A DNA stretch of 34,170 nt from Bryobacterales bacterium (GTDB lineage Bacteria; Acidobacteriota; Terriglobia; Bryobacterales; Bryobacteraceae). The stretch covers positions 1-34,170 of the forward strand of contig PMTR01000017.1 of NCBI GenBank assembly GCA_003167255.1, in the 5' to 3' direction. The notes beneath the pieces were generated by a model. It worked only from the letters and a program-made list of their open reading frames with translations, did not search any database and was not told where the DNA came from. Within the stretch, counting starts at the first letter, position 1, and every line of letters starts with the position of its first letter. Positions 23,682 through 34,170 of the stretch are shown here, piece after piece. The position numbers and the translations under genes were made by a program.

Positions 23682-25088
23682 ATGCCCCGACAGCCTGCGG
23701 TTTCGGGCCGGATCCTGATCGTCGACGATGACGAGCGGCAGCGTGCCGCCATGACTGCCATGCTGGCCGATTGCGACTTTGACACCCAGGTCGCCTCCGA
23801 CGGGCAGGAAGCGCTGGAACGGCTCACGGCCTTCAACGCAGACGTCATCGTGGCGGATTTGATCATGCCGCGCATGGACGGCTTTGAACTGCTCCGCCAC
23901 CTGAAGGAACGCGGCGACCTCACCCCGGCGATCACCCTCACCGGCTTCGGCAGCATGGACAAGGCGCTTTCCGCCGTCCATGACCTCAAGGCATTCTGGT
24001 ACCTGGAGAAGCCGGTGGAACCGCGCGCCTTCAAGACCCTTCTGGAACGTGCGATTCGTTACAAAAGGAGTCTGCAGAAAGCCGACGAGCTGAAGCGCGA
24101 CCTGAGCCTTCGCGGCGTACTGGGGGACCTGGTAGGGACTTCCCCGGCGATGCAGCAAATCTTCTCGCTGATCCGGCAGGTGGCGCCCACTTCAGCGCCC
24201 GTATTGATCTGTGGAGAGAGCGGCACCGGGAAGGAGTTGGTGGCGCGGGAGATCCATAAGTGCAGCCCCCGCAGCGATGGGCCTTTTGTCGCGATCAATG
24301 CCGCCGCCTTACCCGAGACTCTGGTGGAGAGCGAGTTATTCGGCCACGAGAAGGGCGCATTTACGGGAGCCATGGAGCGTTCGGCCGGTTGCTTTGAGCA
24401 GGCTCACGGGGGCACTTTGTTGCTCGACGAGATCGGCGAGATGCCGCTCGCTATGCAGCCAAAGCTGCTGCGGGTGATCGAGGACTTGCGAGTGCGGCGA
24501 CTTGGCGGTAAGCACGAAATCGCGGTAGACGCCCGGGTACTTGCCGCGACCAGTCAGGAACTCGGGACGCATTTGCGCGAAGAACTTTACTATCGCTTGA
24601 GTGTCTTCCAGATCGTAGTGCCGCCGCTGCGGGAACATAAAGAAGACATCGCGCCGATTGCCGAAGTGATGCTGCAGAATCTGAACAAGAAACACGGCAC
24701 GCGGGTTACCGGGGTGGAGGCCGAAGTGCTGGAGCTTTTTCAGCGGTATGATTGGCCCGGTAATGTGCGGGAGCTGCGCAATATTCTAGAGCGAGCCGCC
24801 ATCATGGCAGGCGAGGGTCTGATCCGTCTGACGGACCTTTCTTCCTCGGCGTTGGGTGCAAGCCCCGGCCCGTATACACGGCCTTCGCCCGGCTCTGAGG
24901 GGCCTACCACACTCCAGCCTGGGCAGCCACTGGTGAAACTGGAGGAGGCTTACATCAAACTCACCCTCGAGCACGTGCGCGGCAATCGCAAACTGGCCGC
25001 CGAGATGCTGGGGATCAGCTTACGGACGCTGCAGAACCGGATCGCCGCACTACGCGAAGGGGCGAAAGCGACAAATCCGGGGTCGTGA
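23682..25088 (+). CDS. NtrC-type sigma-54-dependent response regulator
   Basis: A 468-residue activator with three domains. The receiver (about 10-125) has acidic DDD15-17, phosphoacceptor Asp59 (IVADLIMP) and Lys110. The AAA+ sigma-54 interaction domain has Walker A GESGTGKE (178-185), the GAFTGA loop (225-230) that contacts sigma-54, and Walker [12 protein letters not shown]. The C-terminus is a Fis-type helix-turn-helix ([18 protein letters not shown]). It should activate RpoN promoters when phosphorylated. No histidine kinase or sigma-54 promoter target is seen beside it, so it is an orphan here. AGGAGG precedes ATG 23682 by only two bases, an unusually tight spacing. Confidence 0.95.
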
Positions 25089-27159: not shown

Positions 27160-27183
27160 GAGGAGTCGGGGGTTTCCACGTCG

Positions 27184-28167
27184 ATGAGCCAAACGGAACG
27201 GGTGCTGCGGATTCAGCAGATGTTGCAGATCAAGAAGGTCATCCCGCGGGAGGAATTCCTGGGGGAGTTAGAGGTCTCGCTTGCGACCTTCAAGCGCGAC
27301 CTGGAATTCCTGCGTAGCCGGTTTCAGGTCAATATCGAGTGGAACCGGGAACGAGGCGGATACTACTGCGAAGACCTCCGTCCCGGGGCTGGGCAAGGGA
27401 ATATCCCGGGCCCGATGTACAGCGCAAGTGAGATTCATGCGCTACTGCTCATGCAGGACCTTCTCATCCAATTCCAGCCCGGTCTGCTCGAAATCGATCT
27501 CGCACCCCTCCGGCAACGGCTGCAACTGCTGCTCGGCGCCAGGCATTTTGAACCCGACCAGATTCGACGCCGAATTCGCATCCTGCACATGGCGTCCCGT
27601 CCGGTCGACGCCAAATGCTTCCAGTTGGTGAGCATGGCGACGTTGTCCCGGCGGCGTTTGCATTTGACGTACTTCGGTCGTTTCCATAACGAGGAAACCG
27701 TTCGCGAGGTTTCGCCGCAGCGTCTGGTTTACTATCGGGCGAACTGGTACCTGGATTCCTGGTGCCATTTGCGCAACGACCTTCGCAGCTTTGCCTTGGA
27801 CATGATTCGACACGCCGAAATCAGCGATACTCCAGCAGACGAGATCCCGGATGAAGCGCTCGATGCGAACCTTGGCAGTGGCTATGGGATCTTCACCGGT
27901 GCGCCCCAAAACACAGCGGTGTTGCGCTTCGAACCGAATGTCACGCCTTGGGTCTCCCGTGAGATCTGGCACTCCAGGCAGACTCAGCAGATCGAGCCGA
28001 CCGGCCATCTGGTGCTGTCCGTACCCTACTCCGCGGATTACGAGCTCACGATGGACATCCTCCGTTATGGAGCCAACGTCGAGGTCCTCGCGCCTGACGA
28101 CCTCCGCCGGCGCGTGGAAGAGCAACTTCGAGCTGCTGTAAACCGGTATCAGGTAACTTCCTCATAG
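27184..28167 (+). CDS. WYL-domain transcriptional regulator
   Basis: A 327-residue regulator. The N-terminal winged helix-turn-helix (TERVLRIQQMLQIKKVIPRE, SLATFKRDLEFLRSRFQVNI) is followed by a WYL domain (RRRLHLTYFGR, SPQRLVYYRANWYLDSWCHL; W188-Y189-L190) and a WCX-type C-terminal extension (TAVLRFEPNV, GHLVLSVPYSADYELTMDIL). WYL domains sense ligands such as nucleic acids, and proteins of this design control several phage-defence loci (BrxR, CapW). It heads the accessory region, so it may control the genes that follow. Its last codons and about 60 bases of downstream sequence are duplicated at 28996-29096. Confidence 0.9.
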   Translation: MSQTERVLRIQQMLQIKKVIPREEFLGELEVSLATFKRDLEFLRSRFQVNIEWNRERGGYYCEDLRPGAGQGNIPGPMYSASEIHALLLMQDLLIQFQPGLLEIDLAPLRQRLQLLLGARHFEPDQIRRRIRILHMASRPVDAKCFQLVSMATLSRRRLHLTYFGRFHNEETVREVSPQRLVYYRANWYLDSWCHLRNDLRSFALDMIRHAEISDTPADEIPDEALDANLGSGYGIFTGAPQNTAVLRFEPNVTPWVSREIWHSRQTQQIEPTGHLVLSVPYSADYELTMDILRYGANVEVLAPDDLRRRVEEQLRAAVNRYQVTSS

Positions 28168-28227
28168 GGATTCGCCATCTGGCTCACGCCCTGAGCTACC
28201 CGCTGGCTTAGAATCGTTCTTTACTGG
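28127..28227 (+). repeat. Direct repeat, copy 1 (3' end of WYL gene plus downstream)
   Basis: 101 bases aligned without gaps to 28996-29096 (offset 869), with about 10 mismatches. It covers the last codons of the WYL gene (ending NRYQVTSS) and a downstream segment to TTCTTTACTGG, which lies just before the ribosome-binding site of the gene at 28246. Confidence 0.9.
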
Positions 28228-28245
28228 CTGAAGGAGCACAAGGCG

Positions 28246-28758
28246 ATGCAAATCAAGTTGATGGTCGATGAACACGAGGTACAACTCGGGTGTGAAGTAC
28301 TCGAGTCGCTGGTCGGCAATCTTCCGGATGAGGACGAATCGTCGGCCGAGCTGTTTCATAAATTGGCGCAATCGAACATAGCCGGGGTGCGAGAGGCCAT
28401 CGCACGCAAGAGAGTCATCTCGGAGGAAACCGCCGCAAACCTGGCATCCGACTCGAGTCCAGAGGTGATCGGGGCACTCGTGTCTGCACAGTGCGGTAAG
28501 CTCAGCGAATCGGCCCTTGCCCAGATCATTCAGCGCAATTGGACCGGAGTAAACCGGGATATAGCACGAAACGTGGAGGACTACAATCAGAGCTGCATCA
28601 CCGCAGTAGCGAAACTCCTGGCGGATAGCGCCGATCCTTCCGTTCGTGCCGCCCTTGCGTCTAACGGCAGAGCGCCTAAGCTCATTGTGCGGCAACTCTT
28701 GAAGGATCCCGATCCGGAGGTGCGCCGCTTGGCCCAAGACACCCTGAAGGGGCGATAG
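28246..28758 (+). CDS. Alpha-helical repeat (HEAT/LRV-like) protein
   Basis: A 170-residue protein made of short helical pairs. Units such as ETAANLASDSSPEVIGALVS, AKLLADSADPSVRAALASNG and RQLLKDPDPEVRRLAQDTLK carry the D-x-x-x-x-V-R pattern typical of HEAT or leucine-rich-repeat-variant arrays, which bind proteins or nucleic acids. The N-terminal 30 residues (MQIKLMVDEHEVQL) look like a beta-strand element. There is no catalytic motif. AAGGAG lies nine bases before ATG 28246. It sits alone between the two direct repeats with the small ORF at 28833, so it looks like cargo. Confidence 0.75.
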   Translation: MQIKLMVDEHEVQLGCEVLESLVGNLPDEDESSAELFHKLAQSNIAGVREAIARKRVISEETAANLASDSSPEVIGALVSAQCGKLSESALAQIIQRNWTGVNRDIARNVEDYNQSCITAVAKLLADSADPSVRAALASNGRAPKLIVRQLLKDPDPEVRRLAQDTLKGR

Positions 28759-28832
28759 TAACCCAAGCAGCGATTTCCGGCGAATGAGGCAACGGAAATA
28801 AGACCATGAAGAAGGAAGTGAGGGAAACTCAA

Positions 28833-28991
28833 ATGACCATTACCGTTGGCCGTTCGCAAGGTATCCAGTATTGTATTGGCCAACCTTTGTATTTTGGTGG
28901 ACAGTGGTTGCGTATTGACGCCAAATATCCGATTACGGAAAAAGGACTTATAACCAGTTATGCGGTAGTCCTTTCCAAGCCTTCCCATTAA
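28833..28991 (+). CDS. Small protein of unknown function, AT-richer than neighbours
   Basis: A 52-residue ORF starting MTITVGRSQGIQYCIGQPLY and ending AVVLSKPSH. ATG 28833 has GAGGG eight bases upstream; an upstream in-frame ATG at 28806 has only a weak site. Codons are visibly richer in A/T than those of the surrounding genes, which suggests separate origin. No family is recognised. It ends four bases before the second direct repeat. Confidence 0.5.
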   Translation: MTITVGRSQGIQYCIGQPLYFGGQWLRIDAKYPITEKGLITSYAVVLSKPSH

Positions 28992-28995
28992 ATGA

Positions 28996-29096
28996 TTCGA
29001 GCCGCTGCCAACCGGTATCAGGTGACTTCCGCATAGAGATCCGCCATCTGGCTCACGGCCTGCGCTACCCACTGGCTTAGAATCGTTCTTTACTGG
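28996..29096 (+). repeat. Direct repeat, copy 2 (WYL 3'-end remnant)
   Basis: About 90% identical to 28127-28227. Its first bases still read in frame as RAAANRYQVTSA-stop, matching the C-terminus of the WYL regulator (RAAVNRYQVTSS), so it is a remnant of a WYL gene 3' end without the rest of the gene. Confidence 0.9.
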
Positions 29097-29168
29097 TAAG
29101 CAAAGTAATCGGATCAAGGTAACTCGCAGTGACTTGTATTCCGGACGAAAGGGCGCGGTACGTAAACG

Positions 29169-29366
29169 ATGCGACGAAATAGCGGTTTCCAAACGCCGGT
29201 GCGGTGCTTCGTTGCGGTGCGTCCCGGTGATCGGTTCACCATTACCGGACTTGCCGGAACTTTCCTGAAGATTGGCGCGGCCAGTCTCTTGGCTCGGGCG
29301 GTGGCAGCAGTGGGGGCTATGCTGCTCTTGCTGATTATCGCGGCAATTGTATACGTGGCCAGGTAG
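29169..29366 (+). CDS. Small single-pass membrane protein
   Basis: A 65-residue ORF. The first half (RCFVAVRPGDRFTITGLAG) is soluble-looking; the second half is one hydrophobic helix (VGAMLLLLIIAAIVYVA) ending in Arg. The Shine-Dalgarno is weak (AAAGGG far upstream). It is followed 18 bases later by the gene at 29385, so they may be co-transcribed. Small membrane proteins are frequent effectors in defence loci, but function here is unknown. Confidence 0.5.
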   Translation: MRRNSGFQTPVRCFVAVRPGDRFTITGLAGTFLKIGAASLLARAVAAVGAMLLLLIIAAIVYVAR

Positions 29367-29384
29367 CCCTAACGGAGAGCCTAC

Positions 29385-30341
29385 ATGACTGTGAAACCGA
29401 GCGTGAAGATTGCTATTCAATACGAGCCAAGGAGCCGAGGAATTCGCCTGGCGCTGGCGTATTGTCGAATCCGGCGCGGTTCTGGGCCGTTCTTTGACCT
29501 GTACGGCTACTGTATTGGCTACGAAGGCGGCGGAGTTTATGAGGACTGGCCTTTCCACGTCGGAGAACAGATCGGTGTAGGCTTTATCAACTACACCCCC
29601 GCCAACGAAGGCTGTGGGTGGGCCGATGACTGCATCGGCGTCAGCGGCCTGGCCGGGCAAGAATTTGCCGCGGGCGTCGAGTCTCTCTTGAATTTCGTCC
29701 AAGATCGCCTAATGACGCGCTGGTGTTGCTATACCGATGAGGGCGAGGGCGATCCGGATTTAACCCCAGCGGCCAAGAGACGTCTCAATTGCGAGAGACG
29801 AAAGGTCTTCTATACGTCTCCAGACTTCAATGAGGAGCTTTTGGCGTTCCTTTCGCCCGAATGGGGGATCTCCGTAACGTTTGGAGAAGCGGCGGATGAA
29901 TGGGATCGCGCTTTCTCAGAAGTTCGGAAGCGGAAGCGCGCCAAGCGGAACGGGTTCATCGCGGCCCTCGTCAAATACCCGCAATTAATCGAAAATGGTC
30001 TCCGGCTTTTGAGTAATGAGGCTATCGGCCGGTGCGGAAGGAATAAATTGGTGTTTGCCGCCGACCAAGGCGGCGAACTCGTGGTTGCATGCCAATGGGA
30101 ACCAATCACCGAACGCGACGGAGAACGGATCACCACGCTAAAACGGGACCTCCTCTCATCGGAGCACGGGAACACGCGACTGATGGTGGTAGCCCTCGGC
30201 ATTGACCCTGCCGTCCGCCAAGTCCTGGACAGGGAGGGCATTTCCTGCCGCTGGATCGGCTGGGGAGAACTATGCCGCTTTCTCGACGAACATGGCGAGC
30301 GGAAGCTGTCAGAGGTTTTCAAAACCAGGAATATTCCCTGA
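29385..30341 (+). CDS. Protein with a degenerate NucS-like (PD-(D/E)XK) domain
   Basis: A 318-residue protein of unknown function. Residues 1-180 match nothing I know (VGFINYTPANEGCGWADDCI, several Cys). Residues about 190-300 follow the NucS/DUF91 nuclease pattern: ALVKYPQLIENGLRLL with Glu203, a strand CGRNKLVFAADQGGELVVAC, then RLMVVALGIDPAVRQVLDRE and GISCRWIGW. In active members the strand reads GR-x-D-L and V-E-x-K; here these are GRNKL and VACQW, so the catalytic Asp and Glu/Lys are missing. It probably binds rather than cuts. The ATG 29385 has GGAG seven bases upstream. It lies in the same strand group as an intact NucS-like gene at 31436. Confidence 0.55.
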   Translation: MTVKPSVKIAIQYEPRSRGIRLALAYCRIRRGSGPFFDLYGYCIGYEGGGVYEDWPFHVGEQIGVGFINYTPANEGCGWADDCIGVSGLAGQEFAAGVESLLNFVQDRLMTRWCCYTDEGEGDPDLTPAAKRRLNCERRKVFYTSPDFNEELLAFLSPEWGISVTFGEAADEWDRAFSEVRKRKRAKRNGFIAALVKYPQLIENGLRLLSNEAIGRCGRNKLVFAADQGGELVVACQWEPITERDGERITTLKRDLLSSEHGNTRLMVVALGIDPAVRQVLDREGISCRWIGWGELCRFLDEHGERKLSEVFKTRNIP

Positions 30342-30405
30342 ATCTGGCCGCACTTTTCCGCTGCTGGGAGTGGCACAGGTCCGCATGCACAACTGGAGGT
30401 ACTTT

Positions 30406-31071
30406 ATGAGATCCACAAATAATGGAGCGTTCAACGGAAGTTCTAACGCAAGGCCGGCACAGTCCGGGGGGTTGTTGTCTCCCGACGAACTGGCGCTGCC
30501 CGCAGTCTGTGGACAGACCGGCAAACCCTTTGTGATGGTGGTCCGGCGGCAAGGGCGCGGTGTGCTCGAACTCATTCGAGCGGTCGTGATTGAGCCCTCG
30601 CCTTCGGTGAGCGGTGTGCCAGTCCGCCGTGCGGATCCACCGCCCCGGACGCAGACCCGTGCCCCGAGCCGCGCTGCGCTGAATGGCGGAGCAGGTGGAG
30701 GAATGTCAGAAGACCGGGACGTATCCTTCCAGGCGCTCAATATGAGCGGCAGAATCCATATCGGCAGCCTGTACGATGGCTGCCCGCATTGCTGCGCGCG
30801 AGGGTATTTCCGTTGCAGCAAATGTGAGCTGTTCTCCTGTTGGAGCAGGCACAACCGGAAACCACACCTCGACCATATCGATCTTTGGTGCGCAGCCTGC
30901 CGGTTGTGGAGGTGCTTCTCGGATGACGACGACGATGATGATTCATGGAGCGAGTTGACAGCGTACGCTGCGCGTGAGAACAAGGTTGACCTACAAAGCC
31001 GCCTTGCTCCCGAATCAACCAGGCGGGACCAGATTAACCGGGCAACTTCGATAAGGGGTTACTTGAAATAG
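30406..31071 (+). CDS. TerY-C-like cysteine-rich zinc-binding protein
   Basis: A 221-residue protein. The N-terminal 110 residues are low in structure (Pro/Arg/Gly-rich, with a PAVCGQTGKPFVMVVRRQG segment). Residues 120-172 form a compact Cys cluster: Cys126, 129, 130, 137, 140, 145, 162, 165, 170 (DGCPHC...CSKCELFSCW...CAACRLWRC), the pattern of the TerY-C zinc-binding domain, followed by a run of seven Asp and a SELTAYA segment. TerY-C is usually fused to a vWA domain near kinase and PP2C phosphatase genes; none of these are seen here. The start at ATG 30406 is fixed by GGAGG six bases upstream; the longer open frame to 30202 overlaps the previous gene. Confidence 0.6.
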   Translation: MRSTNNGAFNGSSNARPAQSGGLLSPDELALPAVCGQTGKPFVMVVRRQGRGVLELIRAVVIEPSPSVSGVPVRRADPPPRTQTRAPSRAALNGGAGGGMSEDRDVSFQALNMSGRIHIGSLYDGCPHCCARGYFRCSKCELFSCWSRHNRKPHLDHIDLWCAACRLWRCFSDDDDDDDSWSELTAYAARENKVDLQSRLAPESTRRDQINRATSIRGYLK

Positions 31072-31105
31072 CGATAATGCGCGGGTCTGTGCCGAGGGCG
31101 TGGCG

Positions 31106-31219
31106 ATGACCGACTCTTCGAACCAGGTCGCGCGAGCCAAGGAGCAATTCGAACGTAACGAGAAAGCAATGGCCCGAACGGGAGCCAGCACTTCTCTCCT
31201 TGCGTGCATCCCGCAGTAA
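31106..31219 (+). CDS. Possible 37-residue small protein
   Basis: A short ORF with a good ribosome-binding site (GAGGG seven bases before ATG 31106). It starts MTDSSNQVARAKEQFERNEK and ends SLLACIPQ, with a charged helical front like the first helix of a larger protein. It could be a genuine small protein or the broken start of a lost gene. The rest of the 31072-31435 interval holds nothing else that I can support. Confidence 0.35.
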   Translation: MTDSSNQVARAKEQFERNEKAMARTGASTSLLACIPQ

Positions 31220-31435
31220 AAACTGGTGACGCGTGTGAAGACGGCCGGGGCGCTCTCGGCCAAGGGTCTCCTGCCTGGCAGACTTGAGGCCGGAGGGCGT
31301 CGGCCCACGGTGAGACCTCGGCCCTGGCCGCGCAATGCTACAATTGTCGCTCATTATTTCGTGCAATAACCATTCCACCTGCTCTGATGTCAGCGGGACT
31401 CAGTCTGTGGAATCCTTGTCACTTCGGAGAACGAA

Positions 31436-32287
31436 ATGCTTGAAAGTGAAATGGAAGACTTACTTTGGAGGTACCCAGATAAGTTTCTTCGGGAACCGCT
31501 GAACCAGTTCCGAAGGCAACCTCGGTCGGCAGTCGGACGGGCGGACCTCGTATTTGAAGATCGACTAGAGCGATTACTGGTGGTCGAGATCAAACGCGGC
31601 CAGCTACAGAGGGGTGCTATTGACCAAGTGCACGACTATTTCGGCATGATGAAACATGAGTTCCCGAATAAATCAGTGGAAATGATGGTTATCGCTCAGT
31701 CTATTCCATCAGAGAGGAAGGTAGCGCTGGACCGGTACAATATCGAGTACCGCGAGATTCCCGAGAAGCGCTTCCGTGATGTAGCTCTGGAAATGGGCTA
31801 TCTGTTTGAGTCCGAACAAGGGAGTACGTCTGGCTCCGGGCCACGCAACGTTGTCACTCTCGAACCGGGTCCAGTTGTCGAAGTTGGCGACGCCGACATG
31901 ACATCCAGTAGCCTTGGGGGCCACGAGGGCGATATTTCTGCGCCTATCACCACGGCACCCGAGGTCTCCGCTTTCTTCAAGGAGGAGCAACGCAAAAAGG
32001 TAGACTACGACGCCAAGAACAAAGCCCTTAGATATAGGGTTGGATCAAGGATCGAGTGGTCGGTCAATATCTGGAAGCGTTTTGCTTCCGTGTACCAATA
32101 CCGCCGGTTCTCGGGGGACTTGGAGTTCTGGCGGCAAAGGCTCTCCAAGCCTGACACCGTCGCCGGGAAAGACAGCGAGCACTCGCTGGCATTCCGCCTT
32201 GAGAGTAAGTCGGACTTCGATAATTTCCTAGCTGCTCTCGCCAAACCCTCTGCGTTCGAATGGCAAAGCAAACCGCGGGGGCGGTGA
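31436..32287 (+). CDS. NucS-like (PD-(D/E)XK) nuclease
   Basis: A 283-residue protein. The N-terminal nuclease domain (residues 1-115) has the complete active-site pattern: Glu near the start (MLESEMEDLLWRYPDKFL), Asp37 in VGRADLVF, and Glu51/Lys53 in LLVVEIKRG, followed by Gln65 (QVHDYFGMM). It ends in the family strand-helix VEMMVIAQSIPSERKVALDR and NIEYREIP. NucS-type enzymes cut branched, mismatched or flap DNA. After a Ser/Gly linker (120-175) comes a C-terminal domain (RVGSRIEWSVNIWKRFASVY, SKSDFDNFLAALAK) that I do not recognise, perhaps target-binding. GGAG lies seven bases before ATG 31436. It is the last gene of the presumed cassette. Confidence 0.8.
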   Translation: MLESEMEDLLWRYPDKFLREPLNQFRRQPRSAVGRADLVFEDRLERLLVVEIKRGQLQRGAIDQVHDYFGMMKHEFPNKSVEMMVIAQSIPSERKVALDRYNIEYREIPEKRFRDVALEMGYLFESEQGSTSGSGPRNVVTLEPGPVVEVGDADMTSSSLGGHEGDISAPITTAPEVSAFFKEEQRKKVDYDAKNKALRYRVGSRIEWSVNIWKRFASVYQYRRFSGDLEFWRQRLSKPDTVAGKDSEHSLAFRLESKSDFDNFLAALAKPSAFEWQSKPRGR

Positions 32288-32323
32288 TTCGGGTAATTCG
32301 AGGACATGCTACTAAACTCCCAA

Positions 32324-32386
32324 CACCACTTCGGTCTAGCCGAGGAGTTCGAGAAACGCGCGGGCGGCATGACTCAAGGCGCAGCG
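32324..32386 (-). pseudogene. Duplicated 3' end of a LysR gene (fragment)
   Basis: 63 bases matching 33520-33582 with six mismatches. On the minus strand 32386-32336 reads RCALSHAARAFLELLG-stop, the same C-terminus as the LysR gene at 33532 (RRALSHAARAFLELLG-stop). The rest of the gene is absent. It lies beyond the MqsA gene, so the two copies bracket the mqs locus. Confidence 0.85.
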
Positions 32387-32414
32387 ACCGCTGTCGAAGC
32401 ACGCCCCGGCGTGG

Positions 32415-32819
32415 CTATCGCCCGGCCCGGACCTCGTTCAGCAGATTGGGGTGCCGGTCCAGCACCATGAGGAGCTTCACCAGCGCGAGCGGCGGCTTGG
32501 TCTTGCCGTTCTCGTAGCGCGAAAACGCATTCGGGCCGCCGCCGAAAATCGCGGCCGCCTGCCGCTGGTCGAGCGCGAGCTTCTTGCGGACGCGCGCGAT
32601 GAAGCCGGGATCGACCATGGAGGCGTTCACCTGCTTGTTGAACTCCAGCATCGCCGCGCTGACGCGTGACGATTCCGCCGCGGCGAGGACGCTTTCCCCG
32701 CAGGCGGGGCAGAAATCGCCGCGTACGGCCGGAATCGTGGTCGTTTCGCCTTTGTAGGTGTACGGGATATCGCGCGTGTCGCGCACGAGTTTCGCCCCCG
32801 CGCAGGATGGGCATTTCAT
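32415..32819 (-). CDS. mqsA: MqsA-type antitoxin / transcriptional repressor
   Basis: A 134-residue protein aligned along the whole length with MqsA, the antitoxin of the MqsRA pair and autorepressor of its operon. The N-terminal zinc domain has Cys3, Cys6, Cys37 and Cys40, the same numbering as E. coli MqsA; the C-terminal helix-turn-helix (LALDQRQAAAIFGGGPNAFS) keeps Asn97 and Arg101, the base-reading residues in the E. coli protein. In E. coli the toxin gene lies immediately upstream; here only its tail remains (next feature). So it is an orphan antitoxin that could still repress its own promoter or neutralise toxins elsewhere. GGAAGGA lies before ATG 32819. Confidence 0.92.
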   Translation of the reverse strand: MKCPSCAGAKLVRDTRDIPYTYKGETTTIPAVRGDFCPACGESVLAAAESSRVSAAMLEFNKQVNASMVDPGFIARVRKKLALDQRQAAAIFGGGPNAFSRYENGKTKPPLALVKLLMVLDRHPNLLNEVRAGR

Positions 32820-32835
32820 GACATTGATCCTTCCT

Positions 32836-32910
32836 TCATAACTCCTTGAACGACACTATCAGCACGTCGTCCAAGACCGTGAGCTTCAGATACACCTCGC
32901 AGCCGGCGTC
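32836..32910 (-). pseudogene. mqsR: Remnant of mqsR toxin (last two dozen codons)
   Basis: Just upstream of mqsA, the frame ending with TGA at 32836-32838 reads EVYLKLTVLDDVLIVSFKEL, which closely matches the C-terminus of the MqsR toxin (E. coli: VYLKITVIHDVLIVSFKEK). Homology is lost upstream of about 32910, and the frame meets a stop at 32950-32952. MqsR needs about 98 residues, so this is a dead fragment. The toxin-antitoxin gene order and 16-base gap to mqsA match the known pair. Confidence 0.85.
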
Positions 32911-32952
32911 TTCGGCCGGACCGCGACCATGGCCCTGACGACCGCCAGCTTA

Positions 32953-33531
32953 CAATGCGGCGCTCGTTTCTCCATGGGACTACGTTAACCTAGTTGGTTG
33001 AATTTGGCAAGTTGGTAAATGAGGGTAAAGTCGGAGACCGACCGTAACCCGACATGCCCGCCGCTGGCACCCCTCGAAGCAAGGCCCGTATCGAAACCGT
33101 CAGTCGGAACGCAACGATCCTTGCTCCCGCCCCTGATCCCCGTTCACAAGATTCTTCTCTTTTGAAATGAGACACTTGCGTCTGGCTCGCTTGTGTCCGC
33201 CTTCTACAATAGAAACAGGCAAGCAATGCGCACCCGCCGCCACATTCCGCCATCGCCGCCAGACAGGCCGCAGAACCGGCGCCACCCCTGCGCGCACCCT
33301 GTTTTACCAAACGAACCCAAATCCCCGTTTCGGATGCCTGGCATCGTCGCCAGCGCTCGCGCCAAACCCGCTCCCTTGCCTGCGCAAACCGTTTTTACCA
33401 AACGAACCCAATTTGGCAGGCAACCCTCAGAAAACGGAACAGATACTACTCGGCAAAGGAACCCAATCGCACCCGATTTCGGGCCATGCGCCCTGATCGG
33501 TTCACCGCTTGTGAAACATCACGACTTCGGT
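32953..33531. other. Decayed stretch with short direct repeats, no intact gene
   Basis: About 580 bases without a convincing gene. TTTTACCAAACGAACCCAA occurs at 33302-33320 and 33393-33411, and a weaker copy lies near 33457. The core ACCAAACGAACCCAATT (33397-33413) is identical to the reverse complement of 15204-15220, the segment coding IPNEPN in the STGPR-family gene. Translated on the plus strand the repeats read QTNPN and LPNEPN, so this may be the decayed tail of another member of that family. Confidence 0.5.
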
Positions 33532-34170
33532 CTAGCCGAGGAGTTCGAGGAAGGCGCGGGCGGCATGGCTCAGGGCGCGGCGGGTGGGGTACAGGAGGCG
33601 AATTTTCCGCTCGACGTGGATCTCCTTGACGCGGACCTCACAGAGCAGGCCCTGCTCGATTTCCTGTTCGACACACATGCGCGGCAGGAAGGCTACGCCG
33701 GCGTTGTTCTGTACGAGCTTGCGGATGGTCTCGATGGTGGGCATCTCCACGTCCATGCGGAGCGGGACTTTGTGGCGCTGGAATTCACGCAAGACGACTT
33801 CGCGGTACGGGGAAACTACGTTGTGGGCGATGAAGATTTCCGCGCCGAGCTCGGTGATGGAGACGGTCTTGCGTTGCGCGAGACGGTGGAGGGGGGAGAC
33901 GACGAAGGCCAGCGCGTCGGTGTAAATGGCGCGCGACTGGAGGCGGTCGTCGGCGGGATCGTAACTGACGACGCCAAGTTCGAGGTTGCCGTCCAGGAGT
34001 TCATTGGGGATCTTGCTCGAGAAACTGCGGCGCACCTGCACTTTGATTTTGGGGTAGAGCTGGCGATACCGCTCGATGTGGCGGAGCAGTTAGAGGATGG
34101 TAGATTCGTTGGCGCCGATGACGAGGCGGCCGGCGGAGTTGTCGCGCAGTTCAGCGAGCGTGTTTTCGAG
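33532..34170 (-). pseudogene. LysR-family regulator, interrupted by an in-frame stop, cut by window edge
   Basis: The effector-binding domain of a LysR-type regulator: LYPKIKVQVRRSFSSKIPNE, LELGVVSYDPADDRL, LAFVVSPLHRLAQRKTVSIT, NNAGVAFLPRMCVEQEIEQG, ending SHAARAFLELLG. Upstream, in the same frame, NSAGRLVIGANESTIL is followed by TAA at 34090-34092 where a Tyr codon (TAC) is expected, then LLRHIERYRQLYPK resumes. The helix-turn-helix would lie beyond the window edge. A one-base nonsense change or sequencing error explains it. The apparent start GTG 34041 would give a domain without DNA-binding region. The last 63 bases of the gene are duplicated at 32324-32386. Confidence 0.85.

Follow-up and report, generated by a model that had tools for sequence, protein, structure and literature searches.

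How did the 3' end of a regulator gene come to be repeated 869 bases downstream, and does the second copy matter for anything besides the coding sequence that it preserves? The question is raised by contig PMTR01000017.1 of a Bryobacterales bacterium (Acidobacteriota), of which the whole stretch analysed, 34,170 nucleotides, is called the window below, and in which the end of a gene for a WYL-domain regulator recurs around a helical-repeat (HEAT-like) gene and a small open reading frame. The initial annotation had proposed either integration of an element at the 3' end of the regulator gene or a tandem duplication with most of one copy since lost. On the sequence comparisons presented here the repeat is a real, lineage-specific local duplication, and it is probably that rather than the landing site of a mobile element. 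The five closest relatives of the WYL gene (67–89% identity) are those of loci L032 to L036, four of which can be read downstream while L035 stops inside the WYL gene; L032 is from Bryobacterales bog_224 (genome record G433) and L036 is the same contig as G036. The features of the window on which the argument draws are these:

27184–28167, + strand, WYL regulator gene, 327 aa (Pfam WYL, E 1.4e-18; WCX, E 1.7e-16)
28127–28227, + strand, repeat copy 1: the final 38 coding bases of WYL, followed by the stop codon and 60 leader bases
28180–28198, no strand given, palindrome TGGCTCACGCCCTGAGCTA, predicted WYL operator from its recurrence near WYL genes
28209–28214, + strand, TAGAAT, a -10-like hexamer found by eye 10 bases past the palindrome
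28246–28758, + strand, HEAT-like protein gene, 170 aa (Pfam HEAT, E 4.1e-6), adjoining WYL in L032, L033, L034 and L036
28769–28995, + strand, AT-rich piece with a 61-codon ORF (28806–28991), missing from L032 and L036
28996–29096, + strand, repeat copy 2, with 91 of its 101 bases as in copy 1
29049–29067, no strand given, palindrome of copy 2, TGGCTCACGGCCTGCGCTA, its right half-site damaged according to site scoring
29078–29083, + strand, TAGAAT of copy 2, again after a gap of 10 bases
29097–29168, + strand, remnant of a small gene, running up to the 65-aa ORF (60 bases at 83%; tblastn E 0.003)
29169–29366, + strand, 65-aa ORF, the first gene after copy 2 (80–82% identical in L032 and L036; hydrophobic C-terminal stretch by eye)
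29385–30341, 318-aa ORF, with a sub-threshold match to NucS_C only (E 0.23, Pfam)
30406–31071, 221-aa ORF
31436–32287, NucS_C-type protein gene (E 3e-9)

A repeat search reproduced exactly the position, length, spacing and roughly 90% identity first given for the pair. The copies align without gaps over 101 nucleotides with 91 equal bases (90.1%) and ten substitutions; the longest identical run is 25 bases, and the final 25 bases of the repeat, the TAGAAT hexamer included, are identical between them. When the genome of origin (7.35 Mb) was searched with a 124-base query from copy 1, copy 2 was recovered at E 2.6e-33 while the remaining eight matches all had E values of at least 1.48, so that chance is excluded as a source of the repeat; no third strong copy was found in that genome, and copies 1 and 2 are its only strong pair. 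The statement that copy 2 still encodes the WYL C-terminus in frame stands only in part: the copy is open for 14 codons (MIRAAANRYQVTSA, where the WYL gene itself ends in QLRAAVNRYQVTSS), but the ATG comes after the stop codon of the small ORF and, because no WYL frame leads into copy 2, its in-frame C-terminus has little meaning.

What lies between the copies is as originally described, a HEAT-like gene followed by an AT-richer small ORF, with a GC content of 44.5% in the AT-rich piece against 56.7–59.1% for the WYL gene, the HEAT gene and the next two ORFs. The HEAT gene adjoins the WYL gene in all four of the readable close relatives, and in L033 and L034 it is found downstream of WYL at 47–49% identity. 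Relatives with a single copy of the repeat, which the initial annotation had suggested looking for, exist in L032 and L036, and both retain the HEAT gene. L032 follows the window at 88% identity over 27182–28768 and, after one intervening base, at 80% from 29122, and has neither the AT-rich piece nor copy 2 nor some 25 bases more; L036 also joins HEAT to the small-ORF leader, the HEAT gene standing there in tandem with the two genes 82% identical to each other. The AT-rich piece, copy 2 and the 25 or so bases are what is new in the genome of the window. Since no tblastn match to HEAT (E 1e-3) was obtained in the 52 loci L037–L088 or in six more distant family loci, the WYL–HEAT pair is confined to the closest relatives. 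FastTree trees of the two genes agree in grouping the window with L032, with moderate support (0.92 for WYL, 0.81 for HEAT), and the WYL sites that join the window and L032 are hardly in excess (19 against 14 and 16). A foreign HEAT gene was also considered on account of an excess of sites shared by the window and L032, and was rejected when outgroups were added and most of the excess proved to be change private to L036 (22 sites against 10 and 7).

The distribution of the WYL cluster is patchy. Matches to 28760–29380 at E 0.01 occur in 16 of the 237 family genomes, and strong ones in three only, namely the genome of the window, G433 and G036. Two full tandem WYL genes, which would have marked a simple decayed duplication, were not seen, the search finding a single match in each of 9 genomes out of 101, and neither the WYL protein nor the leader has a match in viral contigs. 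Within the protein the WYL and WCX matches exceed their Pfam cut-offs and the HTH_11 match, at 18.4 bits, falls below its cut-off of 25.

Searches of plasmids, phages and viral contigs, and of Pfam, PHROGs, PADLOC and NCBIfam, gave no match to the small ORF of the AT-rich piece; in the family it was found in its own genome alone (1 of 237), and in a search of the class (399 genomes) the one additional hit is a weak match of 24 residues (E 0.006), around which there is nothing similar. Behind copy 2, the small gene of which a remnant persists at 29097–29168 is whole in L036 (6687–6845). L032 retains the first and last bases of the 318-aa ORF without about 29390–30296, and from its sequence this ORF seems to be decaying there. 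In G036 (L020, 8721–9785 and 12479–18731) the tandem HEAT genes, 82% identical, are accompanied downstream of the cluster by genes for a TrwC relaxase, a ParA-like ATPase and a phage-type integrase.

The part of the repeat beyond the stop codon carries a palindrome, TRGCTCA-N5-TGAGCYA, that lies between the WYL and HEAT genes in the window, L032, L033, L034 and L036. With up to two mismatches allowed, this strict pattern occurs near the WYL gene in 27 of 57 loci (17 before the gene and 10 after), compared with 17 matches in 624,687 control positions, and it is present in 23 of the 52 loci that were not used in motif discovery. A looser rule (TCA-N5-TGA, at most one arm mismatch) places a palindrome within 200 bases of WYL in 27 of 57 loci, a set that differs in part from the strict one, where about 0.6 would be expected; by this rule 30 of the 57 have none near WYL, and among six further family loci it is found in L014 only. 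The palindromes upstream of the gene, many of them from Proteobacteria, have TATTAT directly in front in 11 of 17 rows by eye, an arrangement that would suit autorepression, and those behind the WYL gene are followed 9–10 bases on by TAGAAT, TAGTAT or TATGAT in 9 of 12 rows, again by eye and with both window copies counted, which would suit control at the -35 position. Elsewhere in the genome of the window there are five places with one mismatch and none that is exact, the reversed control pattern giving one match per strand.

Going by this recurrence, the WYL protein probably binds the palindrome, and a narrow search recognised no description of such a site in the literature. The lasting gain from this locus is a predicted and directly testable binding site, common to a WYL subfamily in Acidobacteria, Gamma- and Betaproteobacteria and Desulfobulbaceae. 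In one locus from Desulfobulbaceae (L066, 8980–9066) the palindrome TGGGTCA-N5-TGACCCA comes after the WYL gene and a Cas3 gene comes next, which suggests, from gene order, possible WYL control over a CRISPR-Cas operon; L069 has an ORF resembling this Cas3, judged by eye. L075 has two such palindromes before its WYL gene (upstream of 8001), at -185 and -144, and three more near-matches elsewhere in the locus.

In copy 2 the hexamer, its 10-base distance from the palindrome and one of the half-sites are intact. The palindrome of this copy has C at position 15, where 27 of 27 sites have A, a conservation that is inflated by the choice of those sites at no more than two mismatches. The site score falls from 22.6 to 16.5 in copy 2 (16.5 and 17.1 on the two strands), which makes it the second-best site in the window, the next place scoring 13.4. 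A consensus promoter scan listed neither copy and found promoters no more numerous than in shuffles; the hexamer is about as apt to be part of a promoter as not to be, and a remaining effect of copy 2 is conceivable though somewhat doubtful. The copy may be a weakened second operator, as is proposed for R-BOX2 of the WYL-domain regulator BrxR, or a relic. That it may still work is argued from BrxR, for which the authors find a single repeat enough for binding and repression and propose that the degenerate second box, R-BOX2, controls a second promoter (PMC9122601). The palindrome was also considered as part of a WYL terminator at 28191–28211, and this was rejected: a scan flags the site, but such sites are no commoner than in shuffles (4 against 4.6), the leader folds no better than shuffles (z -0.36 and 1.15 for the two leaders, -1.42 for L033) and in Proteobacteria the palindrome stands before the gene.

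The WYL repeat has a counterpart in the same region. A second direct repeat of a gene end, 66 bases at 89% identity, lies at 32321–32386 and 33517–33582, 1196 bases apart with mqsA between; it consists of the 3' end of a LysR gene plus 15 bases, and is the sole such pair in its genome. The mqsA antitoxin gene occupies 32415–33010 (Pfam E 2.8e-62), and upstream of it there is only a stretch resembling, in its reading frames, the tail of an mqsR gene; an exact 19-base direct repeat, TTTTACCAAACGAACCCAA, is found at 33302–33320 and 33393–33411. In the one same-genus genome searched, G001 (82% complete), the flanking M2 peptidase and LysR genes stand about 1.5 kb apart, 93% identical in DNA to those of the window, with cyclophilin-type and cytidylyltransferase-like genes where the window has the stretch from WYL to mqsA (27161–33531). 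Over the stretch compared, G001 has a single LysR end, which lacks the 15 bases, and no WYL gene of this kind was found in that genome at E 1e-20.

We tentatively favour, at somewhat short of even confidence, duplication of a regulatory module within its own gene cluster, the module being the 3' end of the WYL gene with the leader behind it, in which the predicted WYL site would be followed 10 bases on by the -10-like hexamer. Copy 1 would then occupy the native place ahead of the HEAT gene, and copy 2, together with the AT-rich piece, would separate HEAT from the small gene that follows and would act, or would have acted, as a second WYL-controlled promoter for the remaining cluster. The copied unit is best read as gene end plus predicted operator and promoter because palindromes stand near WYL in so many more loci (27 of 57) than the 0.6 expected. 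Four informative sites join the two copies and one goes against this, the copies being closer to each other (90.1%) than to their relatives (77–84%); because the trees place the window with L032 and the copies look like sisters, copying most likely took place after the split from L032, and gene conversion could give the same pattern of sites. A more specific version, in which copy 2 is a working, altered second operator and promoter that splits the cluster into two units of differing sensitivity after one-step copying of the gene tail along with the box of the regulator itself, is unlikely; on that reading the LysR tail, also copied and a few kilobases off, would suggest that the region is prone to such copying. 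The duplication would be a small case of a regulator's box copied inside its own cluster.

Tandem duplication with loss, the second of the origins first proposed, is possible if rather unlikely in the form of a neutral relic, and lies closer to the evidence than integration does. An 869-base unit of repeat, HEAT gene and AT-rich piece would have been doubled, the second HEAT gene and AT-rich piece then lost and copy 2 left inert, a simple course with which the sister-like copies, the damaged palindrome of copy 2 and the tandem HEAT genes of L036 agree; but HEAT tblastn and repeat searches find no remnant of a second HEAT gene after copy 2, where the sequence resembles another small gene, the remnant of that gene exceeds in length what L032 and L036 have at their HEAT junction, and the promoter end of the repeat is unchanged over 25 bases, a weak point given ten changes in 101. 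Both copies also end at the same base, at which copy 1 is without 24 bases kept by L032 and L036, and this a plain tandem duplication does not explain. The shared end and the missing 24 bases hint at recombination between two versions of the locus, and distinctly unlikely as we consider it, a patchwork could have arisen if recombination with a version having the WYL leader joined directly to the small gene had brought copy 2 and the longer remnant in after HEAT. Such an origin would agree with the match of the remnant to a whole small ORF elsewhere in L036 and with the identities on either side, since beyond copy 2 on the right the window resembles L032 (82.3, 78.0 and 76.7%) no more closely than L036 (81.8, 78.0 and 78.9%), while its HEAT gene is closer to L032 (90.3%) than to L036 (79.9–82.8%). 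Once outgroups are added, however, most of the HEAT excess can be put down to faster change of the HEAT copies in L036, and a WYL leader joined to the small gene is absent by DNA search from the 237 family genomes.

Integration at the WYL 3' end, with the HEAT gene and AT-rich piece as a small element and the repeats as its attachment sites, we regard as very improbable. The geometry fits, the AT-rich piece differs in composition, the LysR gene has a gene-end repeat as well, and the L036 cluster has a tyrosine recombinase no further than about 7 kb away and a TrwC relaxase no further than about 2 kb. As to an identical crossover core, the repeats share 25 bases at their end, which speaks neither for integration nor against it. 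Yet HEAT is native in all four readable relatives, and the one-copy loci L032 and L036, where an empty site would have been expected to lack it, keep it, the AT-rich piece alone being missing there; with the agreeing WYL and HEAT trees, these loci led to the rejection of HEAT as foreign cargo, and the original suggestion of integration around it is not supported. The remark that no integrase is present agrees with a Pfam scan of ten window proteins, all of them encoded beyond base 23,999, and an integrase could act in trans. An assembly artefact joining two strains is likewise scarcely to be expected: the window is one of the 200 contigs of a draft assembly, but with ten differences per 101 bases and at most 25 identical bases in a row a simple k-mer collapse is unlikely.

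Integration scars at the 3' ends of genes are imperfect direct repeats of the gene end flanking other DNA, and the window differs from them in that the flanked HEAT gene is native and none of the ten scanned proteins is an integrase. Against PafBC in the PDB the WYL protein matches at E 2e-14, over residues 138–322 only. PafBC is likewise a WYL regulator, and activates (PMC8223512), and by analogy a palindrome just ahead of a hexamer would suit activation of this kind; on present evidence the motif of PafBC itself, RecA-NDp, and its global DNA-damage regulon distinguish it from the WYL protein of the window (PMC8223512). The likeness to BrxR lies in a WYL-domain regulator with an inverted repeat of 5-base spacer near its gene, an arrangement present here in 27 of 57 loci against 0.6 expected, and in a second, degenerate box further on, ahead of another gene (PMC9122601). 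The half-sites of BrxR are 11 bases long and those of the window palindrome 7, R-BOX1 stands before brxR whereas the window palindrome, a predicted operator, stands after the WYL gene, and, unlike that of BrxR, the second box of the window arrived as part of 101 bases of gene end and leader (PMC9122601).
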